From the NCBI RefSeq assembly GCF_022919135.1, contig NZ_CP095049.1:1364001-1428000 (forward strand): DNA of 64,000 nucleotides. Reading direction: 5' to 3'. A model generated the notes under the pieces. It did not search any database. It was not told the origin of the DNA and was given only the letters and a program-made list of their open reading frames with translations. How positions within the stretch are numbered: position 1 is the stretch's first letter; every line of letters starts with the position of its first letter. This document shows, in pieces, positions 8,209-64,000 of the stretch. This DNA comes from Hymenobacter cellulosivorans (GTDB taxonomy: Bacteria > Bacteroidota > Bacteroidia > Cytophagales > Hymenobacteraceae). A program made the position numbers and the translations under genes.

Positions 8209-8285
8209 CTTTGTAAGCCCACTATTTTATTACGCTAAGGAAGTCAACCCTCCTGATTTACAAGTACAAGTACAAGAAAAGATAA

Positions 8286-9779
8286 ATGCAGTTAACCGCC
8301 ACGTCCGGTAAGTCCAGTAGTTGGTATCAACGCCTGAAGCAATTTTGGGCGGCCCGTCCGGGAATAATAGCCATGCTGGTGCTATGGGCCGTTTATTACT
8401 CTCCGCTACCCGAAGAAGCTCCCCGCTTTTTCCTGTATGATTCGCAGGGCTACTGGGACTATGCCATTCAATATGTTGCTAGTGGCTACTTCAATTTTTA
8501 TGGCTTCGACAGCCTGTATCGGGGGTATCTGTTTCCCCTGCTGCTCTCACCCCTGACCAAATTTGTCGCCGAGCACCAGCTTGCCACTATGGATGTGTTC
8601 TATCCCATTGGAGCCGGGCTGGCGGCCATGCTGTTTGGCATGGTGGGGCCCAATCTGTGGGAAGCGGTGCAGGCCCCCGACCAGAAGCGGGTGTCCCTAA
8701 TCAGGCGGCTCCTGTTCGGCGCTGTTGGCTTTATCTTCTGGCGGGGGTATTTCAAGTATCCTCTCACCGACCTGCCGGCCCTGCTGGCTTTGGCTGGCAG
8801 CCTGATAATCGTGCTGCGGAGCCGCTCTGTTGTTAGTGGTCTGCTGGCGGGCTTGCTGGTGGCCACGGCCGCCAACTTTCGGCCCGTGTATACGGCCTCA
8901 CTGCCCCTGGTCGCCCTTATTTGCTTCTGGCCACTGGTAGCTGAAGCAAGGGTGGCAGGAATGGCAGGAATGAAAAACTGGCGGAAGTGGGGACGGCAGT
9001 TGGCTTTTATTGTGGGCGTAGCCCTAATCATGTGGCCGCAGCTGCTCATCAACCAGCACCACTTCAATGTGAACAGCCCCCTGATCCTGACCAGTATGCC
9101 CGATGAGCCTAGTCTGTATTTGCAGCAACTAAAACTGGGCCTCTACGATCAGAAGTACGAAACCAATATCGGCCGCGACTATCCCAGCCCGATGATCGTT
9201 TTTAAAGACCCGGAGGGCATTCGCCTGTGGGAGTCTACTGGGTGGGATAAAATTGAATCGTACGATCAATACATGGAGCTTATCCGGCGCGAGCCTGGAA
9301 CGGTGCTCGGGGTATGGATGCGCCACCTGTTCAACGGACTGGATATTCAATACTCTGATCCGTACATCTGGGAAGTCTATGTTTCGACCTGGAAGACGGC
9401 CTGGCTGAACTATACCATTCTACTGGGCGGATTAGCCATACTGCTTTACCGGGTGGGTTGGCGGCCGTCCCGCTGGCGTGTGACAAATGTATTGGTGCTG
9501 CTCGCCCTAATTGGGCAATGCGCCGCTACCCTGCCAGTGGCCATGGAGTGCCGGTTTCTGCTGCCGTTGCACCTGTTGCTGGCAGCCTGCCTGGTGTTTG
9601 GCCTGCATCCGGTACGCATTTGGCGGCATAGCTCCCTGCCTACTCTCCTCATCGGCGTAGTGGTGTATGCGGTACTGGTAGCCGGCTGCTTCTACGTTTC
9701 CATGCAAACGCAGCTGCAGCTTGAGCGTGGCCCAAGGCTCCTGTTTAACTGGCAGAAACCGGCTCCCGAGCCTTGGTAG
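8286..9779 (+). CDS. Polytopic inner-membrane protein, GT-C-like, function unknown
   Basis: 497 residues with about ten membrane segments. The first loop holds 'FFLYDSQGYWDYA', an acidic/aromatic motif in the position of the GT-C catalytic loop. A large soluble loop lies around residues 255-360 ('MPDEPSLYLQQL...'), followed by a C-terminal block of helices. It resembles Bacteroidota glycosyltransferase 39-like proteins in layout, not in any motif I can name. It sits 77 bases after the decarboxylase and before kynureninase, on the same strand. Confidence 0.65.
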   Translation: MQLTATSGKSSSWYQRLKQFWAARPGIIAMLVLWAVYYSPLPEEAPRFFLYDSQGYWDYAIQYVASGYFNFYGFDSLYRGYLFPLLLSPLTKFVAEHQLATMDVFYPIGAGLAAMLFGMVGPNLWEAVQAPDQKRVSLIRRLLFGAVGFIFWRGYFKYPLTDLPALLALAGSLIIVLRSRSVVSGLLAGLLVATAANFRPVYTASLPLVALICFWPLVAEARVAGMAGMKNWRKWGRQLAFIVGVALIMWPQLLINQHHFNVNSPLILTSMPDEPSLYLQQLKLGLYDQKYETNIGRDYPSPMIVFKDPEGIRLWESTGWDKIESYDQYMELIRREPGTVLGVWMRHLFNGLDIQYSDPYIWEVYVSTWKTAWLNYTILLGGLAILLYRVGWRPSRWRVTNVLVLLALIGQCAATLPVAMECRFLLPLHLLLAACLVFGLHPVRIWRHSSLPTLLIGVVVYAVLVAGCFYVSMQTQLQLERGPRLLFNWQKPAPEPW

Positions 9780-9867
9780 GAGCTGAGTAGCCTCTAATAC
9801 CTGCCTCCCGCCGACGCAACTTCCCCTGAATCGGGTGCCCAGCTCCAGCCGCTTATCTTTACCCCCG

Positions 9868-11157
9868 ATGACTTTCTTCCAGCCCACTGCCGAATTTGCC
9901 GCCGAGCTTGATGCTCAGGATGCGCTGCGTGCCTTTCGTAACCAGTTTCACATTCCCCTGGCCCCCAACGGACAGCCCAGCATCTACCTCTGCGGCAACT
10001 CGCTGGGTCTACAGCCCAAAGCGGCCCGGGCCGCCGTGGAGCAGGAGTTTGAGAGCTGGGAGAAGCTGGGCGTGGAAGGTCACTTTCATGGCACCTCGCC
10101 CTGGATGCATTACCACGAAACCCTGACCGACAGCACGGCCCGCCTGGTGGGGGCCAAGCCGGTGGAAGTGGTGGTGATGAACAACCTGACCACCAATTTG
10201 CACTTGCTGCTGGTGTCATTTTACCAGCCCACGGCCACGCGCTATAAGGTGCTGATGGAAGGCGGCGCTTTTCCTTCCGACCAGTATGCGCTGGAGTCGC
10301 AAGCCCGGCTGCACGGCCTCGCGCCCGATGAGGCCATCGTGGAGCTGCGGCCCCGTGCCGGCGAGCATACCCTGCGCACCGAAGACATTGTGGCCACCAT
10401 TCAGGAGCTCGGCGATACGCTGGCGACGGTTATCCTGGGCGGAGTCAATTACTACACCGGCCAGGCCTTCGACATGGCGGCCATAACCCAGGCCGGCCAC
10501 GCGGTGGGGGCCAAGGTCGGCTTCGATTTGGCCCATGCCGCCGGCAACTTGCTGCTGCACCTGCACGACTGGGACGTGGATTTTGCCTGCTGGTGTTCCT
10601 ACAAGTACCTCAACTCGGGCCCCGGCGGTACCTCGGGCGTGTTCGTGCACGAGCGGTTTGCCGAGCAGCCCGATTTACTGCGCCTGGCCGGCTGGTGGGG
10701 CCACGACCCGGCCGACCGGTTTCAGATGAAAAAAGGCTTCCGGCCAATGAAAGGTGCCGCCGGCTGGCAGCTGTCCAACGCCCAGATTTTCCCGATGGCC
10801 ATTCACCGCGCGGCCCTGGCCTTGGTGGATGAGGCCGGCGGCATGCCTGCGTTGCGCCGCAAGAGCGAACAGCTCACCGCTTACCTCGAATACCTGGTGC
10901 ATCGTCTGGAGCTGCCCGCCGAGGTGCTGGAAATCATTACGCCCAGTGACCCCGCGGCCCGGGGCTGCCAGCTCTCGATGCTGGTGCACCAGAACGGCCG
11001 GCAGTTGTTCGACTATCTGGCCGCCGCCGGTATCATTGCCGACTGGCGGGAGCCCAACGTAATCCGGCTGGCCCCGGTGCCGCTCTACAATTCGTTCGGG
11101 GATGTACAGCGTGCCGGGCAGGTATTGGCTGAGTGGGCTAGTGGGAAAGCCAAATAG
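9868..11157 (+). CDS. kynU: Kynureninase
   Basis: 429 residues from the ATG at 9868; an upstream GTG at 9835 would add a poorly conserved tail. This PLP enzyme of the aminotransferase fold hydrolyses kynurenine or 3-hydroxykynurenine to (3-hydroxy)anthranilate and alanine. Family motifs are visible: 'YLCGNSLGLQPK' near the N-terminus, 'GTSPWMHYHE', 'VVVMNNLTTNLHLLL', the 'GFDLAHAAGN' segment and the PLP-lysine 'CSYKYLNSGPGG'. It makes the substrate of the dioxygenase at 5089. A TATCTTTA sequence at 9854-9861 only a few bases before the ATG may be its -7 box, implying a very short leader. Confidence 0.95.
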   Translation: MTFFQPTAEFAAELDAQDALRAFRNQFHIPLAPNGQPSIYLCGNSLGLQPKAARAAVEQEFESWEKLGVEGHFHGTSPWMHYHETLTDSTARLVGAKPVEVVVMNNLTTNLHLLLVSFYQPTATRYKVLMEGGAFPSDQYALESQARLHGLAPDEAIVELRPRAGEHTLRTEDIVATIQELGDTLATVILGGVNYYTGQAFDMAAITQAGHAVGAKVGFDLAHAAGNLLLHLHDWDVDFACWCSYKYLNSGPGGTSGVFVHERFAEQPDLLRLAGWWGHDPADRFQMKKGFRPMKGAAGWQLSNAQIFPMAIHRAALALVDEAGGMPALRRKSEQLTAYLEYLVHRLELPAEVLEIITPSDPAARGCQLSMLVHQNGRQLFDYLAAAGIIADWREPNVIRLAPVPLYNSFGDVQRAGQVLAEWASGKAK

Positions 11158-11231
11158 TTGTTCGTTTTTTGTTGCCCATCTTACGTAGAAGCAGCAGTAG
11201 TTTCTGATGACGTTCTAGTTTCTCTAAAATC

Positions 11232-11927
11232 ATGGCCGAAGAATACGCGGATAAAATGGCCCGCAAAACCGACGCCGAGCTGCGCCAATACGTGACGGGC
11301 CGAGACCAGTACCGCGACGATGCCGTGCTGGCCGCCTTCGATGAGTTGCGGCGCCGGGGCCAGCCCCACCCCGATGAGGAGCTGGTGCGGCCCGCGTTGG
11401 AAACGGCCGTGCAGGCCCAGGTGGCCCGCGAAACGGCCGCCCGGGAACAAGCTGAGCTGGAAGCTCGGGCCGCCGACCCCGCCACGGTTTCGGCCGCCAT
11501 GCCCGAGCTGTACTCACCCAGCTCCATTGCCATTTTCTCGATGCTGTCTATGACGATGCTCGGAGGCGGCGTGTTACTGGGCATCAATTTGTTCCGCCTG
11601 GGCCGCAAGCGGGCCTTACTGGGGTTGCTGCTCTTTATCGTATTATACCTGGGAGTAGCCGGGCTAGTGTTACAGTGGGCCATGTTTCAGCAGGGGCTAC
11701 ACCCGTTTTTGGGCAACCTGCTGTTCAACGTGCCAGCCATTCTGGTGTATCTGCTCTGGTTCTGGCCACGTTATGTCCAGACGGAACAGTACCGGAGCCG
11801 GAGCATCATTATTCCGATTCTGATCAGCTTCGCCATTGTGTGGGGCCTGCAGCAGGCGCTGCCCTACCTGATAAAGCAGCAGCCCAAGAAGGTGCAGGCC
11901 GAAATGGAGCAACTCCTGAGACGCTAG
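11232..11927 (+). CDS. Hypothetical membrane protein
   Basis: 231 residues. The first 95 or so are soluble, highly charged and helical ('KTDAELRQYVTGRDQYRDDAVLAAFDE' region), resembling short helical repeats seen at the N-termini of many Bacteroidota membrane proteins. Then come about four hydrophobic segments and a basic/acidic tail ending 'LLRR'. It ends 6 bases before the AlkB-like gene, suggesting co-transcription. I do not recognise the family. Confidence 0.7.
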   Translation: MAEEYADKMARKTDAELRQYVTGRDQYRDDAVLAAFDELRRRGQPHPDEELVRPALETAVQAQVARETAAREQAELEARAADPATVSAAMPELYSPSSIAIFSMLSMTMLGGGVLLGINLFRLGRKRALLGLLLFIVLYLGVAGLVLQWAMFQQGLHPFLGNLLFNVPAILVYLLWFWPRYVQTEQYRSRSIIIPILISFAIVWGLQQALPYLIKQQPKKVQAEMEQLLRR

Positions 11928-11933
11928 CCGCCC

Positions 11934-12533
11934 GTGGCCCTGACCTTGCTGCCTTTGCCCGCGGCGGAAGTTCTGCTGGATACTCATTTTCTGCCCGCTC
12001 TGCTGGCCCAGACGCTGCTCACGGAGCTTACCACCAGCATTGCCTGGCGACAGGAGCCCATCAAGCTTTTTGGCAAGGAAGTATTGCAGCCGCGCCTTAC
12101 TGCCTGGTACGGCGACGCCGGGGCCCAGTATTCCTACTCGGGCCTGACTTGGCAGCCTCTGCCCTGGACGCTGGAGCTGCAAGAGCTTCGGGAGCAAGTA
12201 GAAGCCGCCTGTGGTACCAGCTTCAACAGTGTGCTGCTCAACCTCTACCGCCACGGGCAGGACAGCATGGGCTGGCACGCCGATAATGAGCCCGAGCTGG
12301 GCCGGGAACCGGTTATTGCCTCCGTGAGCCTGGGCGCTGCCCGCAATTTCCGGCTCCGGCCCCGCGACCCGCAACGCACCCCGCATGAGCCTGTTACGCT
12401 CGAATTGCCCTCGGGTAGCCTGCTTGTGATGCGTGGCTCCACCCAGCAGCACTGGCTACACGCCGTACCCAAAACTGCCCGGCCCATCGGGCCCCGCCTC
12501 AACCTGACGTTTCGCCGCATTGTAACGGCATAA
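11934..12533 (+). CDS. AlkB-like 2-oxoglutarate/Fe(II)-dependent dioxygenase
   Basis: 199 residues from GTG 11934. The AlkB fold is shown by 'SVLLNLYRHGQDSMGWHADNEPELG', read here as the HxD iron site (His and Asp in 'WHADNE'). The distal iron His is in 'QQHWLHAVPK', and the 2-oxoglutarate-binding Arg motif is 'RPIGPRLNLTFR'. 'RQEPIKLFGKEVLQPRLTAW' matches the nucleotide-recognition lid of AlkB2/ALKBH2-like proteins. Likely role: direct reversal of alkylated bases in DNA or RNA. It follows a membrane-protein gene by 6 bases and ends at a bidirectional terminator. Confidence 0.9.
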   Translation: MALTLLPLPAAEVLLDTHFLPALLAQTLLTELTTSIAWRQEPIKLFGKEVLQPRLTAWYGDAGAQYSYSGLTWQPLPWTLELQELREQVEAACGTSFNSVLLNLYRHGQDSMGWHADNEPELGREPVIASVSLGAARNFRLRPRDPQRTPHEPVTLELPSGSLLVMRGSTQQHWLHAVPKTARPIGPRLNLTFRRIVTA

Positions 12534-53444: not shown

Positions 53445-53494
53445 AAAAGCCCATCCCAATTCTTAGAGTACTCTAGGAATTGGGATGGGCTTTT
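53445..53494. terminator. Long hairpin with T-tail
   Basis: AAAAGCCCATCCCAATTC (53445-53462) pairs with GAATTGGGATGGGCTTTT (53477-53494), and the loop itself contains TAGAGTACTCTA. It looks like a strong terminator, but no clear gene precedes it on the plus strand. Confidence 0.7.
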
Positions 53495-53628: not shown

Positions 53629-54594
53629 CTACTTTATTTGAAATCCAGCATTTAGGCTTATGCTTAGTCTATCCCATGCACTGCTTTCTTCGTTCTGCGA
53701 ATTCAGCAGGTCCAGAATCTGGAAATTTAGACCTGCTACAACGTTACGTGGAGCTCCTTTCTTTGCCAAATAAATACCCGCAGCCGGATTAAGCCGGACT
53801 TTATAGCTATCAAGATAATTGGCCCTGAAGTGCAAGGCCGCAAAAATGGGAGGTGTTTCGCTGCTGCTGTCGGCTGCTGCTTGCCGATTCAGGAGTAGTG
53901 CTATGTCTCCATTCAAGTTGCTGTTGAATAGATTCTTTTTATACTCAGTAATATCGAAAGCCGTTTTGGATTTGACGGCTGTATTACCATTAAGAGAAGT
54001 GGAGTTCAGAAAGATGCTTTTAGTTGATAATTCTTCAATGTTGTTACTGTACCCAAAATTCGCTCCTACTCCATAAAGTAGGTTGCCTACGTAGCCAAAC
54101 CTACCGATCTCTGCTTTCCAGCCGGTAGAGCTCTTGGCGTATACTACATCTTTAGTACGGGTCAAATCATATACCTCTGATCTGTCTAAAGAAATATTCG
54201 CAGAAAAATAGGTTTCGTATGCTTCCCCCTCTTCGTCTGTTTTGATGGGTGCTGGCAAGCTGTTTTTTAAGCCATAATACAAGCCCAGCTGGCCATCTAC
54301 TAAGAAGCCATCCTCATTCTTAAGGGCTGATACACCTTCGTTAGCTTTTAGCTTGGCTAAAATACCTAATCGTTCAAACTTGTCATAGCCAGCCTTTGAC
54401 TTAGGTGTAGTTGATCGACGCTGAAATGTGTTAAAGTCCAGCGCTATATTAGGGTCGGCAGTATTGACAGTAATGCTATTTTTAAAAGCCTTAATTGACG
54501 ATTCTCCTTTGCTGTCTTCAAAGATAGATGTCTGAGCATAACTACTGTGAGCAGCAAAACAAAGAGCGAAACATAAACAAGCAAGCTTTTTCAT
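53629..54594 (-). CDS. Hypothetical secreted protein, probable outer-membrane beta-barrel
   Basis: 321 residues with a signal peptide ending 'AAHSSYAQ'. The mature part shows alternating strands with Tyr/Phe ('GQLGLYYGLKNS', 'YFSANISLDRSEVYDL', 'FAALHFRANYLDSYKVRLNPAAGIYL') and ends 'LSISLNAGFQIK', a typical C-terminal barrel strand. Base composition is more AT-rich than neighbouring genes. It starts 12 bases after the gene at 54607, so the two are probably one unit. Family not recognised. Confidence 0.7.
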   Translation of the reverse strand: MKKLACLCFALCFAAHSSYAQTSIFEDSKGESSIKAFKNSITVNTADPNIALDFNTFQRRSTTPKSKAGYDKFERLGILAKLKANEGVSALKNEDGFLVDGQLGLYYGLKNSLPAPIKTDEEGEAYETYFSANISLDRSEVYDLTRTKDVVYAKSSTGWKAEIGRFGYVGNLLYGVGANFGYSNNIEELSTKSIFLNSTSLNGNTAVKSKTAFDITEYKKNLFNSNLNGDIALLLNRQAAADSSSETPPIFAALHFRANYLDSYKVRLNPAAGIYLAKKGAPRNVVAGLNFQILDLLNSQNEESSAWDRLSISLNAGFQIK

Positions 54595-54606
54595 ACTTCG
54601 GCTGTT

Positions 54607-54915
54607 TTATTTAAAATTCTTACTTCCTTTAATATTTGCTCTGCTTTTTATTTTGGCTCCTGTTATGCCACTTATTTCAATGCTTCTTCCATCGTCATTT
54701 CGCGTTATCGTGCATTTAAATCTTGTTCCACTGAATGCGACGACATACAGTGAATAATCAAGCGTGTCGTCAACCGGCAGAGTGACCTTTTTAGACCATT
54801 TAGTGTCAGTAGTTGGGTCAAGTTTATGTTCAATAGTTTCGCTCGGATCTTCCAGGTAAATGGAGGCGTTGTCAATGGTGCCTTCCCCTTCCAATTCAAT
54901 GGTAAGTGCTGCCAT
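54607..54915 (-). CDS. Hypothetical small beta-rich protein
   Basis: 102 residues without a signal peptide. It begins 'MAALTIELEGEGTIDNASIY' and has about eight predicted strands ('WSKKVTLPVDDTLDYSLYVV', 'FKCTITRNDDGRSIEISG') and a basic tail. It looks like a compact beta-sandwich. AT-rich compared with the region. Adjacent to the barrel protein at 53629 and downstream of the 222-residue protein at 55009. Function unknown. Confidence 0.6.
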   Translation of the reverse strand: MAALTIELEGEGTIDNASIYLEDPSETIEHKLDPTTDTKWSKKVTLPVDDTLDYSLYVVAFSGTRFKCTITRNDDGRSIEISGITGAKIKSRANIKGSKNFK

Positions 54916-55008
54916 AAGTGTGTTTCATTTGAAGATGAATGTGATGGATAGCAACCGGGAGCTACTGCGAGTAAGCTAAATAGCTAATGGTTGCAGTGTG
55001 CTGCCTCG

Positions 55009-55677
55009 TTAGCTCAGCTGATGCGTCGTGTCCTCTACTGTTACTTCCAGTGTGAGGGGAAGCCCTGCAAAGCCGCCGGCGGAAGTGGTGATAGATACTA
55101 CCCTCGTAGTGTGCAGAATATCGCTGCCCTGGACTTCCCCGGGTTGGGCCTTCAGATCATGGAGGGCGTTTTGTAGGGCTTCCTCGAAGGAAAGACGAAC
55201 GGACTTGCCCGTGCCCTGGCGCTTTGGGGGCAAACCGGTAGCCTCATCGGTTCTTGCCGGGGAGGCAAAAGCCGCGAAAAGAGACGGGTCTGGTAGGTTG
55301 GGGAAAGGGAAGGCGGTTACCTGGGTGCGGATAGGCTCGGGGATGCCACCGATTTCTACCTGGTTCGTCTTGGCCAAGATTACAACGTTCGTGGCGGCCA
55401 GCGGTAGATTTTTGAACGTGTGGGTGGCGGATAGGGACGTCAGTACGTCCGGGACAAGCTCACCAGGATCGGGTGGGGTGGCCACAAACTCGAATTCTAG
55501 GCTCGTGAGTGTATCGGCTGCATCCTCATCAAAGAGGGGCTCCAGATGGGCGTTCGTCCAGCCGGGTGTGGCGGCCTGGCCGCTAGCCCGAAGCTCCAGG
55601 CGTGGCGGCAAAATCAGGAGGGGCGACAGGGCAAATTCTGCTTTGTCGACGGAAAGAACCCGAGTACTCATGCTCAA
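55009..55677 (-). CDS. Hypothetical protein downstream of DyP peroxidase A
   Basis: 222 residues, or 220 from the second Met at 55671. No signal peptide or membrane helix. Composition is rich in Pro, Leu and Thr, with strands such as 'LTSLEFEFVATPPDPGELV' and 'VVILAKTNQVEIGG', and a C-terminal 'TTRVVSITTSAGGFAGLPLTLEVTVED'. The DyP gene ends 157 bases upstream on the same strand. I recognise no family; it may be a partner or structural protein of the peroxidase cluster. Confidence 0.6.
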   Translation of the reverse strand: MSMSTRVLSVDKAEFALSPLLILPPRLELRASGQAATPGWTNAHLEPLFDEDAADTLTSLEFEFVATPPDPGELVPDVLTSLSATHTFKNLPLAATNVVILAKTNQVEIGGIPEPIRTQVTAFPFPNLPDPSLFAAFASPARTDEATGLPPKRQGTGKSVRLSFEEALQNALHDLKAQPGEVQGSDILHTTRVVSITTSAGGFAGLPLTLEVTVEDTTHQLS

Positions 55678-55834
55678 AGAAAGTGAGAGGTAGAAAGCAA
55701 GAAAGTATACCAGTGCAAGTGGGCCAAAGGGAGTTGGCCAAACCCAGTTGCTACGCTTTTACTGCTAGCTAGTGAGACGGCTACGGAAGCGGAACAGCTG
55801 TTTGGAGTGGGGCAGTGAAAGGTTGAGCCGGCGC

Positions 55835-57295
55835 TCAAACGGCTGCCGCTTGCGCTGTTTGAGCCAACGCTTCCAAACCGCCTATAGAAGGTGCGTAGAA
55901 GTACTCGCCGCCGCGCAGGGTTACGAACTGCTCGAAGCCGGCCTGCGCTGTAGTGGCGTTGTCCCAGGAAGTGGGAAAGGTGAGCTTGGGGCGATTTCCC
56001 TGCCCGATGATGGGGTCGAGGCCAACGGTGCCGTGGCCAAAGAGAAAGTTTTCGTTGTTGGACCAGGACCGCTGCAGAAATTCGAACTGCTGACCAATGT
56101 TGCGCTGATAGCACATAAACAGCAGGCCGGCTTCCCGCCGATTCTGGGCATCGTCGCGGCTGCCGTAGGGAATGCCGCGGCGGGTGATACGGTGCTTGAG
56201 CTCCAGGGCATCCTTGGTTTCGCCCCGCGGATTCATCTTGCGGATGTGAGCGTGAAACGGGCATTTAGAGCCCGCTGTATCGGCTGTGTAATCGAAGTCG
56301 TTGGTAAAAGCAGGCTTATTGTCGATCTGGTCGGTGCGGGACATGGTCACGGGGGTGCCATTCTCGAAGCGCCCTACCAGCATGGCACCGGCCCGCTCGG
56401 GGTTATCCAAGTCCAGGGCGTCGGGGTGGTCTTCGGTTTTGGGTCCGCCCAAGGCTTTCTCGGCATCTTTGAACCCAGGTACATTCTGCTCCAGCTTACG
56501 AAATACCAAGAAGCTGCCCCAGGAATTGGGCTGCTGGCTTAGCGCATCGGGTACTAGGACTAGCTCCTCGGCACCCAACTGCGTGTCCAGGCTGTGAGGC
56601 TTGGGGCCGTTGGTGTCATCCTTCAGGTACAGGGGCTGGCTCAGGCCATCGGCATAGCCGAAATGCTCAATGTCGTGCGGCTCCTCGGCCGGACCTTCTT
56701 TCAGGCGCTTACCCTGTTCCTGCACCCGAATCCGGATACCCAGGTCGGTAGCTCGGGTTTCAATACCGGCGACAGCCTGCTCCAGTTCAAGGACTTGGTC
56801 GTCGGCTAGTAGCAGCAGAGCGTGAATGGGGCTGGCCGTAGTGGGGCCGCTGCGCCAGCCGGCATCCCAGTTGCTAAGGGCAGGATCAGACAGCTGGCTA
56901 CCGGCTAGGTCACGCATACCGGCGGCAAAGGCTCCATCCCGTCCACGTCCCGGAGCTTGATTCGTGGCTTCCTGGGGCATAGCGGGCACTTGCAGGTGCT
57001 TCAGACCGGCCGCGGTAAACAGCAGGCTGGCAAAAAGCCCTGCATCGAAGGTTGAGCCTTGTTCCTTGGCCTGGCGCAGTTTCTGCCGGTCAAGCAACTG
57101 CTGCTCTGTGGAAATAATGCGGGGGGTGCCATTGCCTCCATTCAGGAGCTGAACAATCCACTGCCGGGCTTTGGCAGTATCGACGAACTCGACAAACAAC
57201 AGGGTGACGTTTTCACGGCCATGGCCTTTCAGGATGTTTCCTTGGGCCTTGCCGTAGCGTTTGATAGCGTCTTCGGGGGAAATAAGAGCAGACAT
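55835..57295 (-). CDS. DyP-type heme peroxidase A
   Basis: 486 residues from the ATG at 57295. Dye-decolourising peroxidases are heme enzymes that use H2O2. The hallmark GxxDG is 'GYADG' at 213-217 (catalytic Asp216). The proximal heme His is likely His350 in 'CPFHAHIRKMNPRG', and the distal Arg lies in 'HRITRRGIPYGSR'. The N-terminal 'QGNILKGHGRENVTLLFVEF' is typical of the long DyP classes (former C/D). No Tat signal or encapsulin-targeting tail is obvious, so cytosolic or partner-carried location is inferred. A second, diverged DyP gene lies at 61386. Confidence 0.93.
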   Translation of the reverse strand: MSALISPEDAIKRYGKAQGNILKGHGRENVTLLFVEFVDTAKARQWIVQLLNGGNGTPRIISTEQQLLDRQKLRQAKEQGSTFDAGLFASLLFTAAGLKHLQVPAMPQEATNQAPGRGRDGAFAAGMRDLAGSQLSDPALSNWDAGWRSGPTTASPIHALLLLADDQVLELEQAVAGIETRATDLGIRIRVQEQGKRLKEGPAEEPHDIEHFGYADGLSQPLYLKDDTNGPKPHSLDTQLGAEELVLVPDALSQQPNSWGSFLVFRKLEQNVPGFKDAEKALGGPKTEDHPDALDLDNPERAGAMLVGRFENGTPVTMSRTDQIDNKPAFTNDFDYTADTAGSKCPFHAHIRKMNPRGETKDALELKHRITRRGIPYGSRDDAQNRREAGLLFMCYQRNIGQQFEFLQRSWSNNENFLFGHGTVGLDPIIGQGNRPKLTFPTSWDNATTAQAGFEQFVTLRGGEYFYAPSIGGLEALAQTAQAAAV

Positions 57296-57410
57296 TGTTG
57301 TACGGAATAAGGATGAGTTGGCTTCCAAAATTCGCCTACTCCTAAGGCTTTTACTTCCGTGCTACCACTGAAATTTGGGCCTTAGTTTTCAGGTGCTTAG
57401 GGGAAGGGGC

Positions 57411-57462
57411 TCATACCTAAAACAGCCGCCAGAAATGCTTCCAGCGGCTGTTTTAGGTATGA
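57411..57462. terminator. Hairpin between DyP A and the HMA-like gene
   Basis: 19-bp perfect arms (57411-57429 and 57444-57462) with a 14-base loop containing AAATGCTT. It lies just past the stop of the small gene at 57488. Confidence 0.8.
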
Positions 57463-57487
57463 AACTCAAGAAGCAAAACCCGTCGGT

Positions 57488-57736
57488 TTATGCGCTGCCG
57501 CCAGCAGCCGGTACTAGCTCATCGGGCAGCACCTCGGCCTGGAAGCCAGCTGTGCGGAGTAGCATAATAAGCTCGGCGGCCGAAATGAAGTCGGTAGCAG
57601 ACTCGATGCGCAGAATATTGTCGCAGTCGTCCAGGTCGAAATTGGCCCGGTACTGGGCAAAGGTCCGGTGAATCTGCTGGAGCAGTAGCCGGGCGTGGTG
57701 CCGGGTCTGAACGTTGGTTTTAAAGACTTCTACCAT
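57488..57736 (-). CDS. Small HMA-like fold protein without metal Cys
   Basis: 82 residues from the ATG at 57736 (frame opens to 57775). The pattern 'MVEVFKTNVQTRHHARLLLQQI', 'RANFDLDDCDNILRIES' and 'IMLLRTAGFQAEVLPDE' is a beta-alpha-beta-beta-alpha-beta ferredoxin-like fold, as in heavy-metal-associated domains. The CxxC site is replaced by a loop with Thr-Arg-His-His. It follows DoxX by about 40 bases on the same strand. Possible copper or heme handling is conjecture. Confidence 0.6.
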   Translation of the reverse strand: MVEVFKTNVQTRHHARLLLQQIHRTFAQYRANFDLDDCDNILRIESATDFISAAELIMLLRTAGFQAEVLPDELVPAAGGSA

Positions 57737-57777
57737 AACGCAGCGTGTAGGAGATAGTAGATAAGGCACGGGCAAGC

Positions 57778-58176
57778 TTAGGCCACGCTGAGCTGGGATT
57801 TGGGCTCAGCTAGGGCCTGGGTCCGGCGTTGGTTGGTGCGGTACGACACGGCAATGATGAGAAAACCCACCCCAATCGGCAGCCACTGGGCCACTGGGTC
57901 GCCCACCGACAGGCCCGAGTACATAGCCCCGGCCAAATCGAAGACAAAGCCGGCGTAGGCCCATTCGCGCAGGTGCGGAAAGCCGGGCACCAGCAAAGCC
58001 AGCACTCCCAGAATTTTGGCCACACCCAGAAACGGCAGCAGGTAAGCCGGATAGCCTAGGTGCTGGAGCCCTTCCACGGCCTCAGGCGTGCTAAGCACGT
58101 TGATAATGCCCGACATAAGCATCATGGCGCAGAAGAAGCCGGTCGAAACCCAGTAGAGAATGTTGGTCGTTTTCAT
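57778..58176 (-). CDS. DoxX-like membrane protein
   Basis: 132 residues from the ATG at 58176. Four hydrophobic helices with the DoxX/DoxD-like pattern: 'GIINVLSTPEAVEGLQHLGYPAYLLPFLGVAKILGVLALLVPGFPHLREWAYAGFVFDLAGA' (split here into the usual helix pairs). DoxX family proteins are small quinone- or thiol-related membrane proteins, sometimes linked to oxidative stress. It directly precedes the HMA-like gene. Confidence 0.85.
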   Translation of the reverse strand: MKTTNILYWVSTGFFCAMMLMSGIINVLSTPEAVEGLQHLGYPAYLLPFLGVAKILGVLALLVPGFPHLREWAYAGFVFDLAGAMYSGLSVGDPVAQWLPIGVGFLIIAVSYRTNQRRTQALAEPKSQLSVA

Positions 58177-58563
58177 GGCAAAAGTCAGGTATAGGGTTGG
58201 ACAGTGAAGAAAATCGGTTGGCAAAACCAGGTCGAATACTAACACTAGTAGTGACGAGCCCGGGTTTAGGAGTTGATTGCCAACAAATTTAGTAACACTG
58301 CCCCCGCCAGAGTAGGGCCGATTCCGACTTATTGCGGGTGTATTGCGACAAGTTAATATTTACTATCTCATGTCTGGGCGGCCTGACTACAAGCCCGTTG
58401 TGCGGTAAGGTGAATTAATTTGCCAAGCCTCACGCGGCGGTTTGCTGCGCAAGCGGCCAACTGTTGTAGGGCCGGTGGAAGGCCACTACAGCACGACGGC
58501 CCAACCGGGGAGTTCCGGTTGGGCCGTCGTTGGGCGGAGTGCTAGGCCAGGTACAGGCGGGGG
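58177..58563. other. Intergenic region with terminator
   Basis: 387 bases with no gene. It holds the hairpin at 58493-58530. Nothing else was found. Confidence 0.5.
58493..58530. terminator. Terminator of the solute-binding-like gene
   Basis: ACGACGGCCCAACCGG (58493-58508) pairs with CCGGTTGGGCCGTCGT (58515-58530), loop ggagtt. It lies about 34 bases past the stop at 58564. Confidence 0.75.
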
Positions 58564-59217
58564 CTACCGCTGCCGCTGTCGGCCGGTGCTAGCCAGCTGA
58601 TGCTGGTTGAGGTAAGTTTCCAGAGCCGCCAGCCAAGCCTTTTCGCCGGCCGGCACAGCTATAACCGGATTGGTTTTGGCAAGCTCACGGCCATCGGTCA
58701 AGGCTACGGGCTCCGGCTGGGCCGCAGTAGAATCCTGGGGTGCAGGGGGCGTCCTGGCTGGTTGCTGGGGCTCTGCGATCCGCCCGCGACTTTTGTAGCG
58801 CAGGTAAGCGTAGTTCGCGTTTTCTAAGTGGGGGCGGGTTGGGGCAGTATTGTCTTTGCCCGGCGTTTGCTCGGTGAGGTTGCCGATAAGTAAGTCAATT
58901 TTTCGGTTGCGGAGCGCGCGGTAAAGCTGCTGCTCGCTGCCGGGCACCCACTCTACGTTGGCCGACAGCTGGCGGGCCAGCCCGGTAATAAGCACCGCAT
59001 CCGGGCCCTGGGGCAAAATAGAAGACGGGTTCTTCTGGCCCGGGGTAGCAGGCGTGTAGCCGACCCGGAGCACCGTGCCCCGGACCCGAGCCAAAGTACC
59101 CTGCGCGGCGCCGGGTGCCCGGTCGACCATCTTCTCGTACAGTCCGTCACCCAACGACATCAGGTAAATCATACTGCTTACGGTCAGTAAGCAACCACTA
59201 ATCAGGAGTAGTTTCAT
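58564..59217 (-). CDS. Membrane-anchored, shortened solute-binding-protein-like domain
   Basis: 217 residues from the ATG at 59217. An N-terminal hydrophobic helix is followed by 'TVLRVGYTPATPGQKNPSSI', 'DAVLITGLARQLSANVEWVPGSEQQLYRALRNRKIDLLIGNL', matching lobe 1 of SBP_bac_3-type periplasmic binding proteins. The second lobe is replaced by a short Pro/Gln-rich linker. The C-terminal 'VPAGEKAWLAALETYLNQHQ' looks like the last helix of such proteins. It follows the antiporter gene on the same strand. Probably a sensor or lobe-only relic; no ABC permease is nearby. Confidence 0.6.
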   Translation of the reverse strand: MKLLLISGCLLTVSSMIYLMSLGDGLYEKMVDRAPGAAQGTLARVRGTVLRVGYTPATPGQKNPSSILPQGPDAVLITGLARQLSANVEWVPGSEQQLYRALRNRKIDLLIGNLTEQTPGKDNTAPTRPHLENANYAYLRYKSRGRIAEPQQPARTPPAPQDSTAAQPEPVALTDGRELAKTNPVIAVPAGEKAWLAALETYLNQHQLASTGRQRQR

Positions 59218-59342
59218 AGCAGACAGGGTTAGGTTAATGGTGAGTATTTGCAAGTACGGGAGAATAAGGAGAAGTAAAGTGCTTATTTTTCAAGGGATAA
59301 ATCCGGCTAAGCCGGCAAGTAATACCGCGGTGGCCGCTCAGC

Positions 59343-59388
59343 AAACAAGCAGAGACGGCTGAAGCAATTCAGTTGAATCTGCTTGTTT
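59343..59388. terminator. Antiporter terminator
   Basis: AAACAAGCAGA (59343-59353) pairs with TCTGCTTGTTT (59378-59388); an inner CTGAA-gcaa-TTCAG hairpin (59359-59372) sits inside. It lies 24 bases past the antiporter stop. Confidence 0.7.
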
Positions 59389-59411
59389 ACCTGGTGTTTC
59401 GGTCGCGCTCC

Positions 59412-61034
59412 TTAGTGAGGCATGTGGCTGATTTTGGCTTCGTCTAGGTCGAGCTGGGCTTCCTGGTGGCGCAGCATTTCTTCCTCAAATACGTCTTCCT
59501 GCCGCAGTACGAACAGCTCCTCCCGCTGCACTTGCAGCACGTCGAGCAGTACCTGATGGTAGCGCTGCAGGGCCCGGCGCTTGGTTTCGTCGTAGTCCAG
59601 GGCTTCGAGCAGGTTGCCGGTGCGCTGGGCTTCGGCCTGCATGCGGTGCTGCAGGGCGCTAATCATCTCATTGTCCCGGATATCGTCGGCGTACTCCCGG
59701 GCCAGATGGGCCAGGGCGACGTGGCGCAGGCGCAGGCGGATACCGGCTTCCTGCTCGTCGGTGGGCATACGCTCCTCGGTGTCGGCCACCCGGGTCAGGC
59801 GGATGATGGCGGGCAGGGTCAGGCCCTGAAACACGAGCGTCACCAGAATTACGACGAAGGTGATGAACAGAATTAGGTTGCGCTGCGGAAACGCCTGCCC
59901 ATTGCTCAGTAGCAGAGGTACCGAGAGAGCCGAGGCCAACGACACCACCCCCCGCATGCCGGCCCAGCCGATGATAACCGGGCCCTGCCAGCCGGGGCTG
60001 GTTTCCTGGGTCCGGATGCTGCGGAACAGCCAGCGCGGTACAAAGGCCGCCGGGAACATCCAGACCAGCCGAATGATAATGACAATAGCGCTGATAATGA
60101 GGCTGTAGGTAATGGCTTGCTGCAGGGAGTAGTTGCCCAAACCCTGCACGGCTACCGGCAGCTCCAGCCCGATGAGGATGAAGACCAAGCCATTGAGAGC
60201 AAATCCAACGCTGGTCCACACGCTGTTGGTTTGCAGGCGGGTGTCGGCGTCGAAGACCCGGTGCGAGTGATAAGACAGCATCAGCCCGCCGCTGACCACG
60301 GCCAGCACGCCCGAGAAGTGGAATTCCTCGGCCAGCAGGTACATCACGTAGGGCGCCAGGAAGGTCAGCACGGTGTTGATGCTGGGCGTGGTGGGTAAGT
60401 AGCGGTGAATCAGGTAGAAGCCGTAGCCCACGGCCAGCCCGACGACCAGGCCCAGGCCGCTGGCCAGCACGAAGCTGGTGGTGGCTTCGTGCCAGGAAAA
60501 CGTGCCCGATACCACCGCGGCCAGGGCAAAGCGGAACACGATCAGGCTGCTGGCATCGTTGATCAGACTCTCGCCCTCCAGGATGGCCGTTACCTGCCGC
60601 GGTACTTTAATGCCCTTGAGCACCGAAGTGGCCGCCACTGCATCGGGTGGGGAGATGATGCCGCCCAGCAGAAACCCCAGGGCCAGCGTGAAGCCCGGAA
60701 TGATGCTGCTCGACACGTAGGCCACGATGGTAGAAGTGAAGAACACCAGCCCGAAGGCCAGTAGGGCAATGGGCCTCTTCCAGCGCCAAAAGTCTTTCCA
60801 CGACGTGTCCCAGGCGGCCTGGTAAAGCAGAGGCGGCAGAAAAATCAGGAAAATTAGGTCGGGGTCGACGGTGATGAGGGGCAGGCCAGGCACGAAGCTC
60901 AAAGCTAGGCCAGCCAGCACCAAGAAGATAGGGTAGGAGATGCGCAGCTTCTGGCTCAGCATCACGAGCAGCAGCATGGCAAACAGCAGGCCCAGAACCA
61001 GCAAAATTGTTTCGTGTAGGGCGTTGTTGTGCAT
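59412..61034 (-). CDS. CPA1-type Na+/H+ antiporter (NhaP-like)
   Basis: 540 residues from the ATG at 61034 (frame opens to 61217 in GC-rich non-family sequence). About twelve helices with CPA1 signatures: 'PDLIFLIFLPPLLYQAAWDT', 'GIISPPDAVAATSVLKGIKVPR' (the ND/PD transport pair region) and 'ILEGESLINDASSLIVFRF'. The ~150-residue cytosolic C-terminus is helical and charged ('HRMQAEAQRTGNLLEALDYDETKRRALQRYHQVLL'). It exports Na+ (or K+) in exchange for protons. Confidence 0.93.
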   Translation of the reverse strand: MHNNALHETILLVLGLLFAMLLLVMLSQKLRISYPIFLVLAGLALSFVPGLPLITVDPDLIFLIFLPPLLYQAAWDTSWKDFWRWKRPIALLAFGLVFFTSTIVAYVSSSIIPGFTLALGFLLGGIISPPDAVAATSVLKGIKVPRQVTAILEGESLINDASSLIVFRFALAAVVSGTFSWHEATTSFVLASGLGLVVGLAVGYGFYLIHRYLPTTPSINTVLTFLAPYVMYLLAEEFHFSGVLAVVSGGLMLSYHSHRVFDADTRLQTNSVWTSVGFALNGLVFILIGLELPVAVQGLGNYSLQQAITYSLIISAIVIIIRLVWMFPAAFVPRWLFRSIRTQETSPGWQGPVIIGWAGMRGVVSLASALSVPLLLSNGQAFPQRNLILFITFVVILVTLVFQGLTLPAIIRLTRVADTEERMPTDEQEAGIRLRLRHVALAHLAREYADDIRDNEMISALQHRMQAEAQRTGNLLEALDYDETKRRALQRYHQVLLDVLQVQREELFVLRQEDVFEEEMLRHQEAQLDLDEAKISHMPH

Positions 61035-61385
61035 AAGGCGAGGAAATGGTAACGGCGGGCAAACTCCGCGGCCCGAAGCCGGAAGGTAGCCGCTCGTCGG
61101 CAAAAATGCCACGAGCCGGGCCGCTGCCTGCCTATCTTGCCCCGGCCTATGCCCGACTTGCCCGCCTGCCGCACCTATTGTCGCAAGTTCAAAACCAGCT
61201 GCCCTGGTGAGGTGCAACGGTTACGTTGGGGGCCAGACCACAAGCCAAGCCGCCCCGCAAGGTCTGAACGATTTTGGTTCTGACCTTGCGGGGCGGGGCG
61301 TACCCTGGCTAGCTGTTGTTCAAGGGCGTAAGGCCTGCTGACAGCTAGCAAAGCAGGCTATGCTTGCTGTCAGCATTCCAGTAGG
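61035..61385. other. Intergenic region with two hairpins between DyP B and the antiporter
   Basis: 351 bases, no gene. Hairpin 1 at 61251-61295 pairs CGCCCCGCAAGGTC with GACCTTGCGGGGCG and has an inner GAAC/GTTC step. Hairpin 2 at 61337-61374 pairs GCTGACAGC with GCTGTCAGC around AGCAA/TTGCT-type pairing. Hairpin 2 is right after the DyP B stop; either may act as its terminator. Confidence 0.5.
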
Positions 61386-62906
61386 TTACAAAACCTCGGT
61401 AAAGAAGCGGATGCCCGGCGTAAAAAAATACTCGCCGCCGGTGGCATGCACCCAGCCCCCGGGAATCAGGAGCGGAACCTTGGTGTCGTTCTTCCGGAGC
61501 TGGATCGTGAAGTTGCTTTTGCTACCCAAAATAGCGTCGAATCCGCTGCCGCCTTTGGGCTTGTCTTCGTCGTTTACCCAGTTGTTCATCACGAATTCAA
61601 ATTGATTGGTGATGGACGACTGAAAGGAAACAAACAGCAGGCCCCGTTCGGCAGCGTGGTCATCAAGCTCAGGACCGAAGGTAATACCGCGCCGGAGCAT
61701 CAGGCGCTGGAAGGTTCGCTCCATGTTGCCCAGGTCGGTACCGTCGTCGCGGGGCTGCACCTTGCGGATGTGGCTGGCAAACGGACAGATATTGCCTCCA
61801 AAGTCGGCTTGGTTTAACGGGTGCGGGTCGTTGGGCAGAGGCGACGCTTGGGCGGCCGTAAAGCTGAAGTAGTTTTCGCCCTCCTGGTTAGGGCCTTGGT
61901 CGGGGCCGCGCATCACTGGCCAGCCCGAGGGCCAGCGTCCCACCAGCAGGGCCCCCAGTTGCTTCGGCGTCATATCCGGGTCGAAGCCCTGTTCTCGTAA
62001 CTCGGTGGCAGCCGCCGTCAGAAACCTGTGAAAGCGGTCCACATCCTGATTCAGACGGCGGTATACCAAAAAGGAGCCGTTGCGGGCCCAGGCTGGCCCA
62101 ACTGGCTCCGAGCCGGGCCGCGCCTCGGCCGGCTTATCTTTCCATTGCCCCGGATACCCAAACAGAAAGTGGCCCGGCCACACCAACTGTCGGCCTGGAC
62201 TGGCATAGAGCTGGCGTTGCTGGTCAAACTGCGGGCCGGCCGGCCAGGAGCGGGGCTCGACAAAGTCGGTGGTCGCGGCGGAGGCCCGGCCCCGAATGGC
62301 AGGAAATGAAATTCCGTCGCGGAAGCCAAAATGCTCGTGCCCTGACAGGGCGCCAGGCCGCACCCGGCCGTGATCGATGTGGAGCAGCTCGAACCCATGC
62401 TGCACGGCTTGCTGAATGAGTTCCGCCTCCTGCTGCAGAATCCAGGCCTGGTCGTCGCTGGCTATGGTCAGTAGTACGGCCGGTTTGGCCGCCCCAGCGC
62501 CTACCAGCCACGTATCGGGAGCCCCAAGAGCCCCACTACCCGAACTAGGGTCGCCGATAATGCCGGCCCGGGCTTCCAGCCCCAGCTGAAAGGCTTCGTC
62601 CTCAAACTCAGCCACGCCCTCGATACCCAGGGTTTGGAGGCCCGCGGCCGAGAAAGCGCAGTTGAGAAAGAGAAAGTCCAGGTTGTTGGGTTCGTGGGCC
62701 AGCCGCCGACGCATGTGCTTCCACAGGGCGTGAGCCACGCTGACTTCGCTAGCCGAGGAAAGCCGGGGGGCCAAGGCCTTCAACCAGGCCCGGGCCGCGG
62801 TGGGCTCCGTGATGCGGAAGAAAAGAAAATGCTGATTGTCCTTTTTGAATCCAGGAAAGATGTTGCCCTGAATGTCGTCCAGCTCCAGAACGGGTTCTTC
62901 CATCAT
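61386..62906 (-). CDS. DyP-type heme peroxidase B
   Basis: 506 residues. N-terminal 'LELDDIQGNIFPGFKKDNQHFLFFRI' is the DIQGNI start of the long DyP class. The GxxDG motif is 'GFRDG' at 194-198 (Asp197). The proximal His is probably His379 in 'CPFASHIRKVQPRD', and 'RLMLRRGITFGPE' carries the distal Arg. It differs widely from peroxidase A at 55835. It begins 12 bases after the unrecognised gene at 62919, strongly suggesting co-transcription. No signal peptide is visible. Confidence 0.93.
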   Translation of the reverse strand: MMEEPVLELDDIQGNIFPGFKKDNQHFLFFRITEPTAARAWLKALAPRLSSASEVSVAHALWKHMRRRLAHEPNNLDFLFLNCAFSAAGLQTLGIEGVAEFEDEAFQLGLEARAGIIGDPSSGSGALGAPDTWLVGAGAAKPAVLLTIASDDQAWILQQEAELIQQAVQHGFELLHIDHGRVRPGALSGHEHFGFRDGISFPAIRGRASAATTDFVEPRSWPAGPQFDQQRQLYASPGRQLVWPGHFLFGYPGQWKDKPAEARPGSEPVGPAWARNGSFLVYRRLNQDVDRFHRFLTAAATELREQGFDPDMTPKQLGALLVGRWPSGWPVMRGPDQGPNQEGENYFSFTAAQASPLPNDPHPLNQADFGGNICPFASHIRKVQPRDDGTDLGNMERTFQRLMLRRGITFGPELDDHAAERGLLFVSFQSSITNQFEFVMNNWVNDEDKPKGGSGFDAILGSKSNFTIQLRKNDTKVPLLIPGGWVHATGGEYFFTPGIRFFTEVL

Positions 62907-62918
62907 GGCAAAACAGGG

Positions 62919-63974
62919 TTAGCCGTTGAAAGGCTTGGGTGCCGGTGAACTACGGCGGCCGTTATCGGCGGCGAGCAAATCACCGCCGTCGTCGGGAAGC
63001 GCCACGGGGGTATCGTCTACGCACCCAATGGCGCGGGGCGGCGGCAGGCTGGCCGGGGAGCTCACCAGTACGCCCACCCGGACGTTGATACGAGCGGCAA
63101 TGTGGCCCCCGAAGGCAATATTGACGCCGCCAATCTTGATGTCGGAAACACTATAGCCTTTGTCGGCCGGCACGGCAAAGCGGGCCCGCACGATATAGGC
63201 CTGATTGGGGTCGGCATGGTCGGTGCCGCGCTCCACGGTCCAGAAAGTGCTGGCCGGGGTACCGTCGGGCGTCGTCCACCCGTCCCAGTCGATGCCGCTC
63301 ATGTAAAGCCCCACCGGGTTTTCAATGGTGATGAAGCGGTTTTGACGGGCAAAGCTATTGACGGCTCCGCCGATGCGCGGGTCGCTCTGCCGATTCTCGT
63401 CGCCGTACCCCGCGCACAAAATAAGGCCCAGGTCGTCGGTGATGGGAGTGCCATCGGACTTCATACGCAGAATGCAGGCGCGAGAAACGATGTTGATCTG
63501 GGCGCCCAGCGTGTTGTTTGGCTGCTGCATGTGCACGGCGTAGGCATTGTTGAACTCGTTGTGCCAGTTGTAATTGCCGTCGGCGTCCTGTAGGTCGTTG
63601 AGGGTGATAGAAGTATCATCGCAGATGCGCTGGTAAAGATCCACGAGCAATTCGGGGGCCCGGCGGTGCAGAAACTGATAGTATTCCGGTGGTTCGCTGG
63701 TAAAAAGCACCCGAATAATTTCGCCCTGGTCATTGCGCGTTACCACCCACTCGCAATATTCGTCCTGAATACGGGTAATCAGGCTGGGGTCGGTAGGAAA
63801 GGGCTGGCGGCCATCCAGGAACGTGAGCTTTTCCCGTTGGCTGCTAAACTGCTCATCGAAGCTAGTCGGCAAAGCCGACCAGAACACGTTTTCCAGCTGC
63901 GAATTGGCAGGCATGGGCATGGAGGCCGGGTTGTACACGCGCAGGTCCCGGTCGGACCGGTTCCAGCGGCGCAC
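62919..63974 (-). CDS. Unrecognised protein directly upstream of DyP peroxidase B (5' end may lie outside window)
   Basis: At least 351 residues. The frame stays open from GTG 63974 through 'NEVRRWNRSDRDLRVYNPASM' to the window edge, so the gene may extend further; a Met at about 63918 is an alternative start. No signal peptide or membrane helix. The middle reads 'GAQINIVSRACILRMKSDG', 'DPRIGGAVNSFARQNRFITIENPVGLYMSGIDWDGW' and ends in a Pro-rich tail. It looks like a folded enzyme or lectin-type domain I cannot name. The 12-base gap ties it to the peroxidase. Confidence 0.65.
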   Translation of the reverse strand: MRRWNRSDRDLRVYNPASMPMPANSQLENVFWSALPTSFDEQFSSQREKLTFLDGRQPFPTDPSLITRIQDEYCEWVVTRNDQGEIIRVLFTSEPPEYYQFLHRRAPELLVDLYQRICDDTSITLNDLQDADGNYNWHNEFNNAYAVHMQQPNNTLGAQINIVSRACILRMKSDGTPITDDLGLILCAGYGDENRQSDPRIGGAVNSFARQNRFITIENPVGLYMSGIDWDGWTTPDGTPASTFWTVERGTDHADPNQAYIVRARFAVPADKGYSVSDIKIGGVNIAFGGHIAARINVRVGVLVSSPASLPPPRAIGCVDDTPVALPDDGGDLLAADNGRRSSPAPKPFNG

Positions 63975-64000
63975 TTCGTTCAGAGCTGAGCTCGGTCCTG

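Follow-up and report, generated by a model that had tools for sequence, protein, structure and literature searches.

Two dye-decolorizing peroxidases (DyPs), separated by 4.06 kb, are encoded on one strand of the 64,000-nucleotide stretch of Hymenobacter cellulosivorans DNA analyzed here (the window; contig positions 1364001-1428000 of a complete 6.1-Mb genome). One of them, DyP B, is preceded by a gene whose relatives carry the Pfam domain PF26676; this gene and its pairing with heme-type proteins are the main subject of this study. The three genes are placed as follows (window coordinates).

62919-64000, minus strand: 3' portion of the partner gene (PF26676 type), whose coding sequence extends 112 bases past the window edge and specifies 397 amino acids in total.
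61386-62906, minus strand: DyP B, 506 amino acids, class V (C/D), catalytic motifs intact, starting 12 bases past the partner's stop codon.
55835-57328, minus strand: DyP A, class V, a 497-residue open reading frame from a TTG codon; starting instead at an internal ATG would shorten it to about 485 residues.

A sequence-only reading of this DNA had described two long DyPs with intact GxxDG and heme-histidine motifs on the same strand, and profile searches and motif inspection bear this out. The DyP_N and Dyp_perox_C domains (Pfam) and TIGR01413 (NCBIfam) score above cut-off in both proteins. The GxxDG motif reads HFGFRDG and HFGYADG in the pair, the heme-histidine motif CPFASHIR and CPFHAHIR, and the distal arginine is present in both (GRW and GRF). 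No third DyP_N match was found in the host genome. By sequence, DyP B is closest to the ancestral D-type construct 7anv and to 6fsk, and the closest solved relatives of DyP A are the Alr1585 protein (5c2i) and DyP2 (4g2c). The window proteins resemble these class V (C/D) enzymes in sequence, domains and catalytic motifs; the DyP B clade differs by its usual linkage to PF26676. The earlier remark that no encapsulin or Tat signal is visible also proved correct: no signal peptide is apparent by eye at either DyP N-terminus, and the encapsulin profile PF04454 has no match in the host genome, as compared with matches in 3 of 14 control genomes. Encapsulin packaging is thereby ruled out. So are EfeB-type iron uptake (the Tat-dependent deferrochelatase), TIGR01412 scoring 35.9 and 42.8 bits against a cut-off of 428, and, for DyP B, a MauG-type di-heme enzyme, its sequence having no CxxCH where two are needed.

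The protein encoded 12 bases before DyP B had been taken for a 351-residue product of no recognized family. The spacing (stop to start) is right; the length is an artefact of the window edge, the full coding sequence (contig 1426919-1428112) specifying 397 residues with the N-terminus MWQFEPTAKL..., and the relatives do belong to a named family. When 5.8 billion proteins were searched with the part of the partner that lies in the window, 128 relatives were returned, and PF26676 is the precomputed domain in all 120 of those listed. The window protein is assigned to the family through these relatives, at up to 71% identity with about 92% of the window part aligned. The top 50 or so are 60-71% identical, in most cases with some 90% of the query aligned, and their sources include Nitrospira, Synechococcus, Nostoc, Microcoleus and Oxalobacteraceae. 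None of 193 further genomes sampled from the host's order has the gene (1 of 194 including the host), and in a quick tree, which carried long-branch warnings, the closest neighbors of the host copy are Nitrospira and cyanobacterial copies. Relatives in Nitrospira and cyanobacteria, with none in the 193 genomes of the order, make it probable that the host obtained the partner gene by horizontal transfer, the simplest reading. A scan of viral contigs did not find it. No enzyme family was recognized for the window protein by Pfam, NCBIfam or a sequence search of solved structures, and a resemblance to a Lactococcus phage repressor was dropped (20.4 bits, under cut-off, 20 residues). Neither the naming of PF26676 nor its link to heme proteins was found in print, as far as titles and the beginnings of abstracts go. 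Some family members (L013:9005-11125, plus strand; P0093; P0101) have N-terminal extensions with a repeated 'PPxWLKV'-like stretch, possibly serving as a leader or for docking.

A scan of a species-genome collection confirmed 225 PF26676 loci, and the locus counts given hereafter refer to the best 80 of these. A same-strand DyP open frame lies directly downstream of PF26676 in 25 of the 80 (that of L014 reaches the contig end); one further locus has a 140-residue DyP remnant (L069) and another a divergent DyP (L060). At 46 of the 80 loci PF26676 is adjoined by a member of a family of about 550 residues, named A3 here, which lies upstream in all except L023 and is fused in frame in L047. A CxxCH protein is the sole such neighbor at five loci, and a contig end lies beside PF26676 at two (L009 and L015). 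Five loci contain a second PF26676 copy. Those of L065, L068 and L079 adjoin a CxxCH protein; those of L041 and L046 are followed by a protein of about 420 residues that, among solved structures, best matches deferrochelatase/EfeB- and DypB-type DyPs (E 5e-9 and 9e-9, with some 110-125 residues aligned). PF26676 has thus acquired DyPs of two different classes as neighbors. In L047, from Azospirillum, a single frame (8165-12523, plus strand) joins A3, PF26676 and PLD-like domains and so represents a natural fusion of the partner with its heme-type neighbor.

An independent set of 72,556 plasmid records yielded 25 with the partner, of which 22 were resolved (H19-H21 were left out as the same Paracoccus locus as H18 by score). 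All 22 have a heme-type neighbor: a DyP in seven (H1, H12, H13, H17, H22, H23 and H25), A3 in 13 and a CxxCH-family protein in two (H18 and H24), the 13 A3 plasmids and H13 having been judged from abutting match coordinates only. The partner and heme-protein genes overlap by one base on two plasmids, to be compared with the 12 bases between them in the window. It could be argued that such neighbors are accidental and that the DyPs are ordinary stand-alone peroxidases. DyP A, whose neighbors have almost no relatives, may fit that description; for DyP B, however, it is refuted by the heme-type neighbor present in 78/78 readable loci, in 5/5 second copies and in 22/22 resolved plasmids, and as a general explanation it is hardly credible. 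PF26676 is almost certainly paired with heme-type proteins. Judged from these gene arrangements, it is the constant component, and the adjoining protein varies among a B-clade DyP, a DyP of another class, A3 and a CxxCH protein.

Five A3 members tested gave no match above Pfam cut-off and three gave no NCBIfam match. The family has an invariant histidine in 20 aligned rows, within a motif that reads CFDCH in four loci, CFDSH in 25, and PFDSH and variants elsewhere, a pattern from which we infer that A3 descends from cytochrome c and has lost the thioether cysteines; at the 42 loci other than the CFDCH ones, heme is putative. The CxxCH neighbor is about 500 residues long, with a C-terminal CxxCH and a signal-like N-terminus by eye. 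Searches for solved relatives of either family by sequence returned weak, unrelated-looking matches only. Homology between A3 and the CxxCH family was rejected, the alignment being limited to the CxxCH-like spot, and homology between the partner and A3 was tried and likewise rejected.

The association was also approached from the DyP side, and by comparing the histories of the two genes; the searches of the host's order, of the cyanobacterial phylum and of 50 genomes mentioned in this text are samples. When 292 genomes from the phylum of the Synechococcus genome were searched with a B-clade DyP, four DyPs scored above 200 bits, two of them beside the partner (G195 and G196). Compared with DyP B, linked intact DyP frames reach 222 bits or more, and unlinked DyPs at most 134 except L114 and L115. 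The other DyPs compared, including those of the host's order, have no partner in their flanks (often shorter than 1.5 kb) and stay at or below 134 bits. For the linked plasmid DyPs L157-L159, which were not scored directly against DyP B, the profile scores are 355-432, similar to the 382 of DyP A; PF26676 linkage is thus not confined to a sharply bounded clade. Residues D197, H379 and R324 (DyP B numbering) are kept in 29/29 linked DyPs. Distances between DyPs correlate with those between their partners (29 pairs, r=0.785), none of 2000 permutations reaching as high a value (best 0.31). In a partner tree of 84 copies, a quick tree with long-branch warnings, the neighbor type (DyP, A3 or CxxCH) changes three times when contig-end rows are left out, and five times when they are counted as a fourth group, against a shuffled mean of 31. 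The pairing of DyP B and its partner as a two-gene unit, probably spread horizontally, is general in the sample and well supported by these comparisons of sequence and gene order.

The surroundings of DyP A present a different picture. The remaining features of the region are listed below.

57488-61217, minus strand: 95-residue open reading frame, DoxX_2 protein, SBP_bac_3-like protein and CPA1 Na+/H+ antiporter, between the DyPs.
58564-59253, minus strand: the SBP_bac_3-like gene of that group, not mentioned in the sequence-only reading.
55009-55677, minus strand: 222-residue open reading frame (220 residues from an internal ATG), near-orphan.
54607-54915, minus strand: 102-residue open reading frame, orphan in the order sample, G+C content 0.40.
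53629-54594, minus strand: 321-residue open reading frame that by eye seems to start with a signal peptide, orphan in the order sample, G+C content 0.42.
53448-53491, plus strand: 20-pair hairpin with a T run, downstream of the run formed by DyP A and the 222-, 102- and 321-residue frames; scored as a plus-strand terminator, the run itself being on the minus strand.

Gaps of 157, 93 and 12 bases separate DyP A and the 222-, 102- and 321-residue frames in that order. The three small proteins remain unrecognized, as first described: the 222- and 321-residue products match no curated family at E 1 and the 102-residue product has weak sub-cut-off matches only. The 95-residue protein once called HMA-like has no HMA match. 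Besides itself, the 222-residue protein has a single relative (61%) among the 5.8 billion proteins; in the order sample it has two weak matches, one in its own genome. The latter (L088, contig 3240501-3240836) is distant, covers part of the protein at 36% identity and spans a TAG codon. The 102- and 321-residue proteins have no relative in the 193 other genomes of the order. Their genes have a G+C content of 0.40-0.42 compared with 0.59-0.62 in six other genes measured and 0.58 in the window; they are probably of foreign origin. None of the three proteins occurs in PF26676 loci; nor do homologues of the antiporter, the binding-protein-like gene or the 95-residue gene, and DoxX has one weak match there (E 0.04). 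The four genes between the DyPs look like bystanders. The DyP A-type genes examined elsewhere have no PF26676 gene in their short flanks, with the exception of L072 (686-9395), a Chamaesiphon metagenome-assembled genome. Some 4.5 kb upstream of its PF26676-DyP B pair is a DyP A-type gene, so that both DyP types occur together as in the window; the DyP A-type gene is followed there by one for an 811-residue protein without Pfam match. In a genome of the same genus as the host (L151:5303-7014, minus strand; G087) a DyP A relative is split over two frames and preceded by a 488-residue frame, which by eye resembles a 454-residue protein at L002:9887-11251. The initial proposal that these DyPs have partners of their own thus holds firmly for peroxidase B, in light of the cross-phylum neighbors, the matched distances and the plasmids, and is unsupported for peroxidase A, with its near-orphan neighbors that are absent from PF26676 loci; nothing supports a system made of peroxidase A and the genes around it.

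The presence of a heme-type gene beside PF26676 in the examined loci of many phyla makes it probable that the two proteins act as one oxidizing unit. Our preferred reading, held with a confidence that falls a little short of even, is that DyP B and its partner constitute a two-component heme peroxidase, with the partner as acceptor of the oxidizing equivalents. The two proteins would bind one another; hydrogen peroxide (H2O2), which in some loci could be supplied by a nearby LodA/GoxA-type oxidase, would raise the heme to a high-valent state; and the oxidizing equivalents would move on to conserved tyrosines, tryptophans or cysteines of the partner. DyPs carry b-type heme and are reported to hand oxidizing equivalents from compound I to tyrosine and tryptophan radicals (PMC10646903). 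Residues of these kinds are among those never varying in 187 aligned partners (E121, Y122, W125, E143, Y166, N191, N194, D250 and G302; numbering of P0001) or kept in at least 95% of them (W23, W81, Y187, H200, C239 and C370). The partner might then either carry the substrate or be itself oxidatively matured, in the manner of MauG acting on preMADH or of DtpA supporting GlxA maturation. Oxidative maturation of the partner, taken by itself, we consider unlikely. Rather doubtful, too, is its broader form, in which PF26676 would be a new class of protein substrates, matured into cross-linked, quinone- or radical-bearing forms by the adjoining heme protein, with two DyP classes, c-type cytochromes and cytochrome-derived proteins as interchangeable maturases, and in which one DyP clade would natively serve such maturation.

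DtpA is an A-type DyP. In Streptomyces lividans, GlxA maturation under low copper is reported to need DtpA, which uses the H2O2 made by GlxA (PMC4736821; PMC8197335). The likeness is that a DyP is required to mature a protein with a Tyr-Cys cofactor and is fed by oxidase-made H2O2. However, DtpA is Tat-exported and part of a copper pathway (PMC4736821), whereas the proteins considered here are mostly B-clade DyPs without evident signal peptide; the partner has no copper-oxidase domain match, and its gene is adjacent to that of the DyP. MauG is described as acting at long range on preMADH, and the last oxidation of QhpC may be carried out by hemes (PMC7876137). In the MauG-preMADH, LodB-LodA and QhpD/QhpG-QhpC systems treated in that source, a dedicated redox enzyme oxidizes partner residues into a quinone cofactor. 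DyP B differs in its lack of CxxCH and the partner in being unrelated to LodA, and modification of the partner is, in the present case, a proposal.

Several observations weigh against the two-component reading. Around the cyanobacterial B-clade DyPs of G331 and G373, PF26676 is absent for about 7 kb, indicating that the DyP can stand alone. The correlation of distances is a sign of co-inheritance, for which adjacency by itself would be enough. In the case of the EYxxW stretch, conservation is to some extent a product of the search, the 80 loci having been found with the patterns QDEY[CNL]EW and T[LI]x[ND]PVGLY[MI]; the stretch is also present in a 24-row alignment of the window protein and 23 relatives. 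The full CxxCH is kept in just 4 of the 46 A3 loci, the ones reading CFDCH, which have a signal-like start by eye, so that heme in A3 can only be inferred. Sequence searches found no solved relative of the partner, and its identity as a LodA/GoxA cysteine tryptophylquinone oxidase was rejected (no LodA_N or LodA_C match; hhalign probability 0.03%). LodA-like genes occur at just 6 of the 80 loci (L005, L011, L019, L024, L025 and L063). In favor of the reading, LodA_N genes are found near PF26676 more often than by chance: of the 19 detected in 14 of 50 genomes, six, in four genomes (L005, L011, L019 and L063), are no more than about 12 kb away from it, where 0.08 would be expected for a distance of 15 kb, a Poisson figure that assumes random placement and a span set after the loci had been viewed. 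Because the 50 genomes were hand-picked (of the 80) and contain all six LodA loci, this enrichment is somewhat flattered. Finally, the host genome contains no LodA_N gene, so that the DyP B pair would have to use H2O2 from elsewhere.

The wider context of PF26676 bears on the possibility that the partner is itself an enzyme, the heme protein performing the previous or next small-molecule step. PF26676 and its neighbor would then be the minimal piece of an amino-acid-derived pathway whose larger clusters include LodA-like oxidases, VioB-related ferritin-like proteins, FAD enzymes and tyrosinases. A Nostoc plasmid carries, ahead of the pair, genes for a VioB-related ferritin-like protein, a radical SAM enzyme with QhpD (TIGR03906) as its best model, a LodA_C plus ferritin-like protein and an FAD protein resembling QhpG; the NCBIfam matches there are all under cut-off. 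The same gene set is found in Arthrobacter (L024), with A3 replacing the DyP, and in Mycetohabitans, where the order is PF26676-DyP-LodA, the pair is accompanied by two unknowns, a LodA/GoxA oxidase and an FAD enzyme. More generally, QhpD-, QhpG- and LodB-like proteins, all below curated cut-offs, lie beside some PF26676 units; these and the Mycetohabitans genes speak for the two-component reading as well. Ferritin-like (PF12902) proteins are encoded in L018, L107, L005, L024 and L063, and a tyrosinase near L068 and in Paracoccus; LodA-like operons are reported to include tyrosinases and multicopper oxidases (PMC4417212, in whose main text the word "peroxidase" does not occur). The recurrent context is one of LodA/GoxA-type quinone oxidases, a few loci having tyrosinases as well, and nothing seen points to polyphenols as such, the processing of which the sequence-only reading had offered as one possibility. 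A partner enzyme would also account for the density of invariant polar residues in PF26676. However, the larger clusters occur at a minority of the 80 loci, the heme families swap while PF26676 stays, and no enzyme family is recognizable in the window protein; we regard this explanation as possible, if on the doubtful side.

Alternatively, the partner could be an assembly factor, a heme-loading chaperone or an inhibitor that keeps a reactive peroxidase safe in the cytoplasm. The unvarying association with heme-type proteins, whichever their family, the tight gene spacing where measured and the lack of a signal peptide by eye on most partners (that of L071 looks lipoprotein-like) are in keeping with such a role. 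The existence of two B-clade DyPs without a partner gene is less so, and a conservation of 50-70% across phyla was judged to be more than a chaperone would be expected to show, making this an unlikely explanation.

A third alternative, in which the unit would be an oxidative effector in biological conflict, akin to secreted or released toxin-like enzymes, arises from fusions and neighbors of another kind. In addition to the PLD-like domain of L047, PF26676 is fused with PLD in Microvirga (L057, 9935-12481, plus strand) and with Trypsin_2, Exo_endo_phos and DNA/RNA non-specific endonuclease (Endonuclease_NS) domains in a planctomycete (Planctomycetota; L063, 9902-14125, plus strand). Plasmid pSmeSM11b of Sinorhizobium meliloti (L159, 7145-10666, plus strand) encodes, directly behind the PF26676 gene and with a radical SAM gene near, a 1174-residue protein combining a DyP with leucine-rich repeats; on an Acaryochloris plasmid an NB-ARC protein (L108:3294-7100) lies upstream of a PF26676-DyP pair. 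Endonuclease_NS, subtilases, M4 peptidases, EAD1 and NB-ARC appear among the neighbors, EAD1 in 2 of 83 neighbor proteins of A3- or CxxCH-linked loci, and amino acid oxidases are reported to release H2O2 (PMC4417212). Yet these tallies are small, each family accounting for 2-4 of 97 or 83 proteins, and come without a random-locus control (97 of 133 and 83 of 126 picked open frames, from 26 and 25 loci, respectively), and the pair in the host genome has no visible secretion signal. A role in conflict is thus very unlikely.

The physiological function of DyP peroxidases is reported to be still largely unknown (PMC11107159; review PMC8197335). A dedicated partner, up to 71% identical across phyla and found beside several heme-type proteins, offers a direct handle on it. 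Were it true that the partner is matured by its neighbor, PF26676 would represent a new family of protein-derived redox centers, and DyPs would acquire a role in making cofactors.

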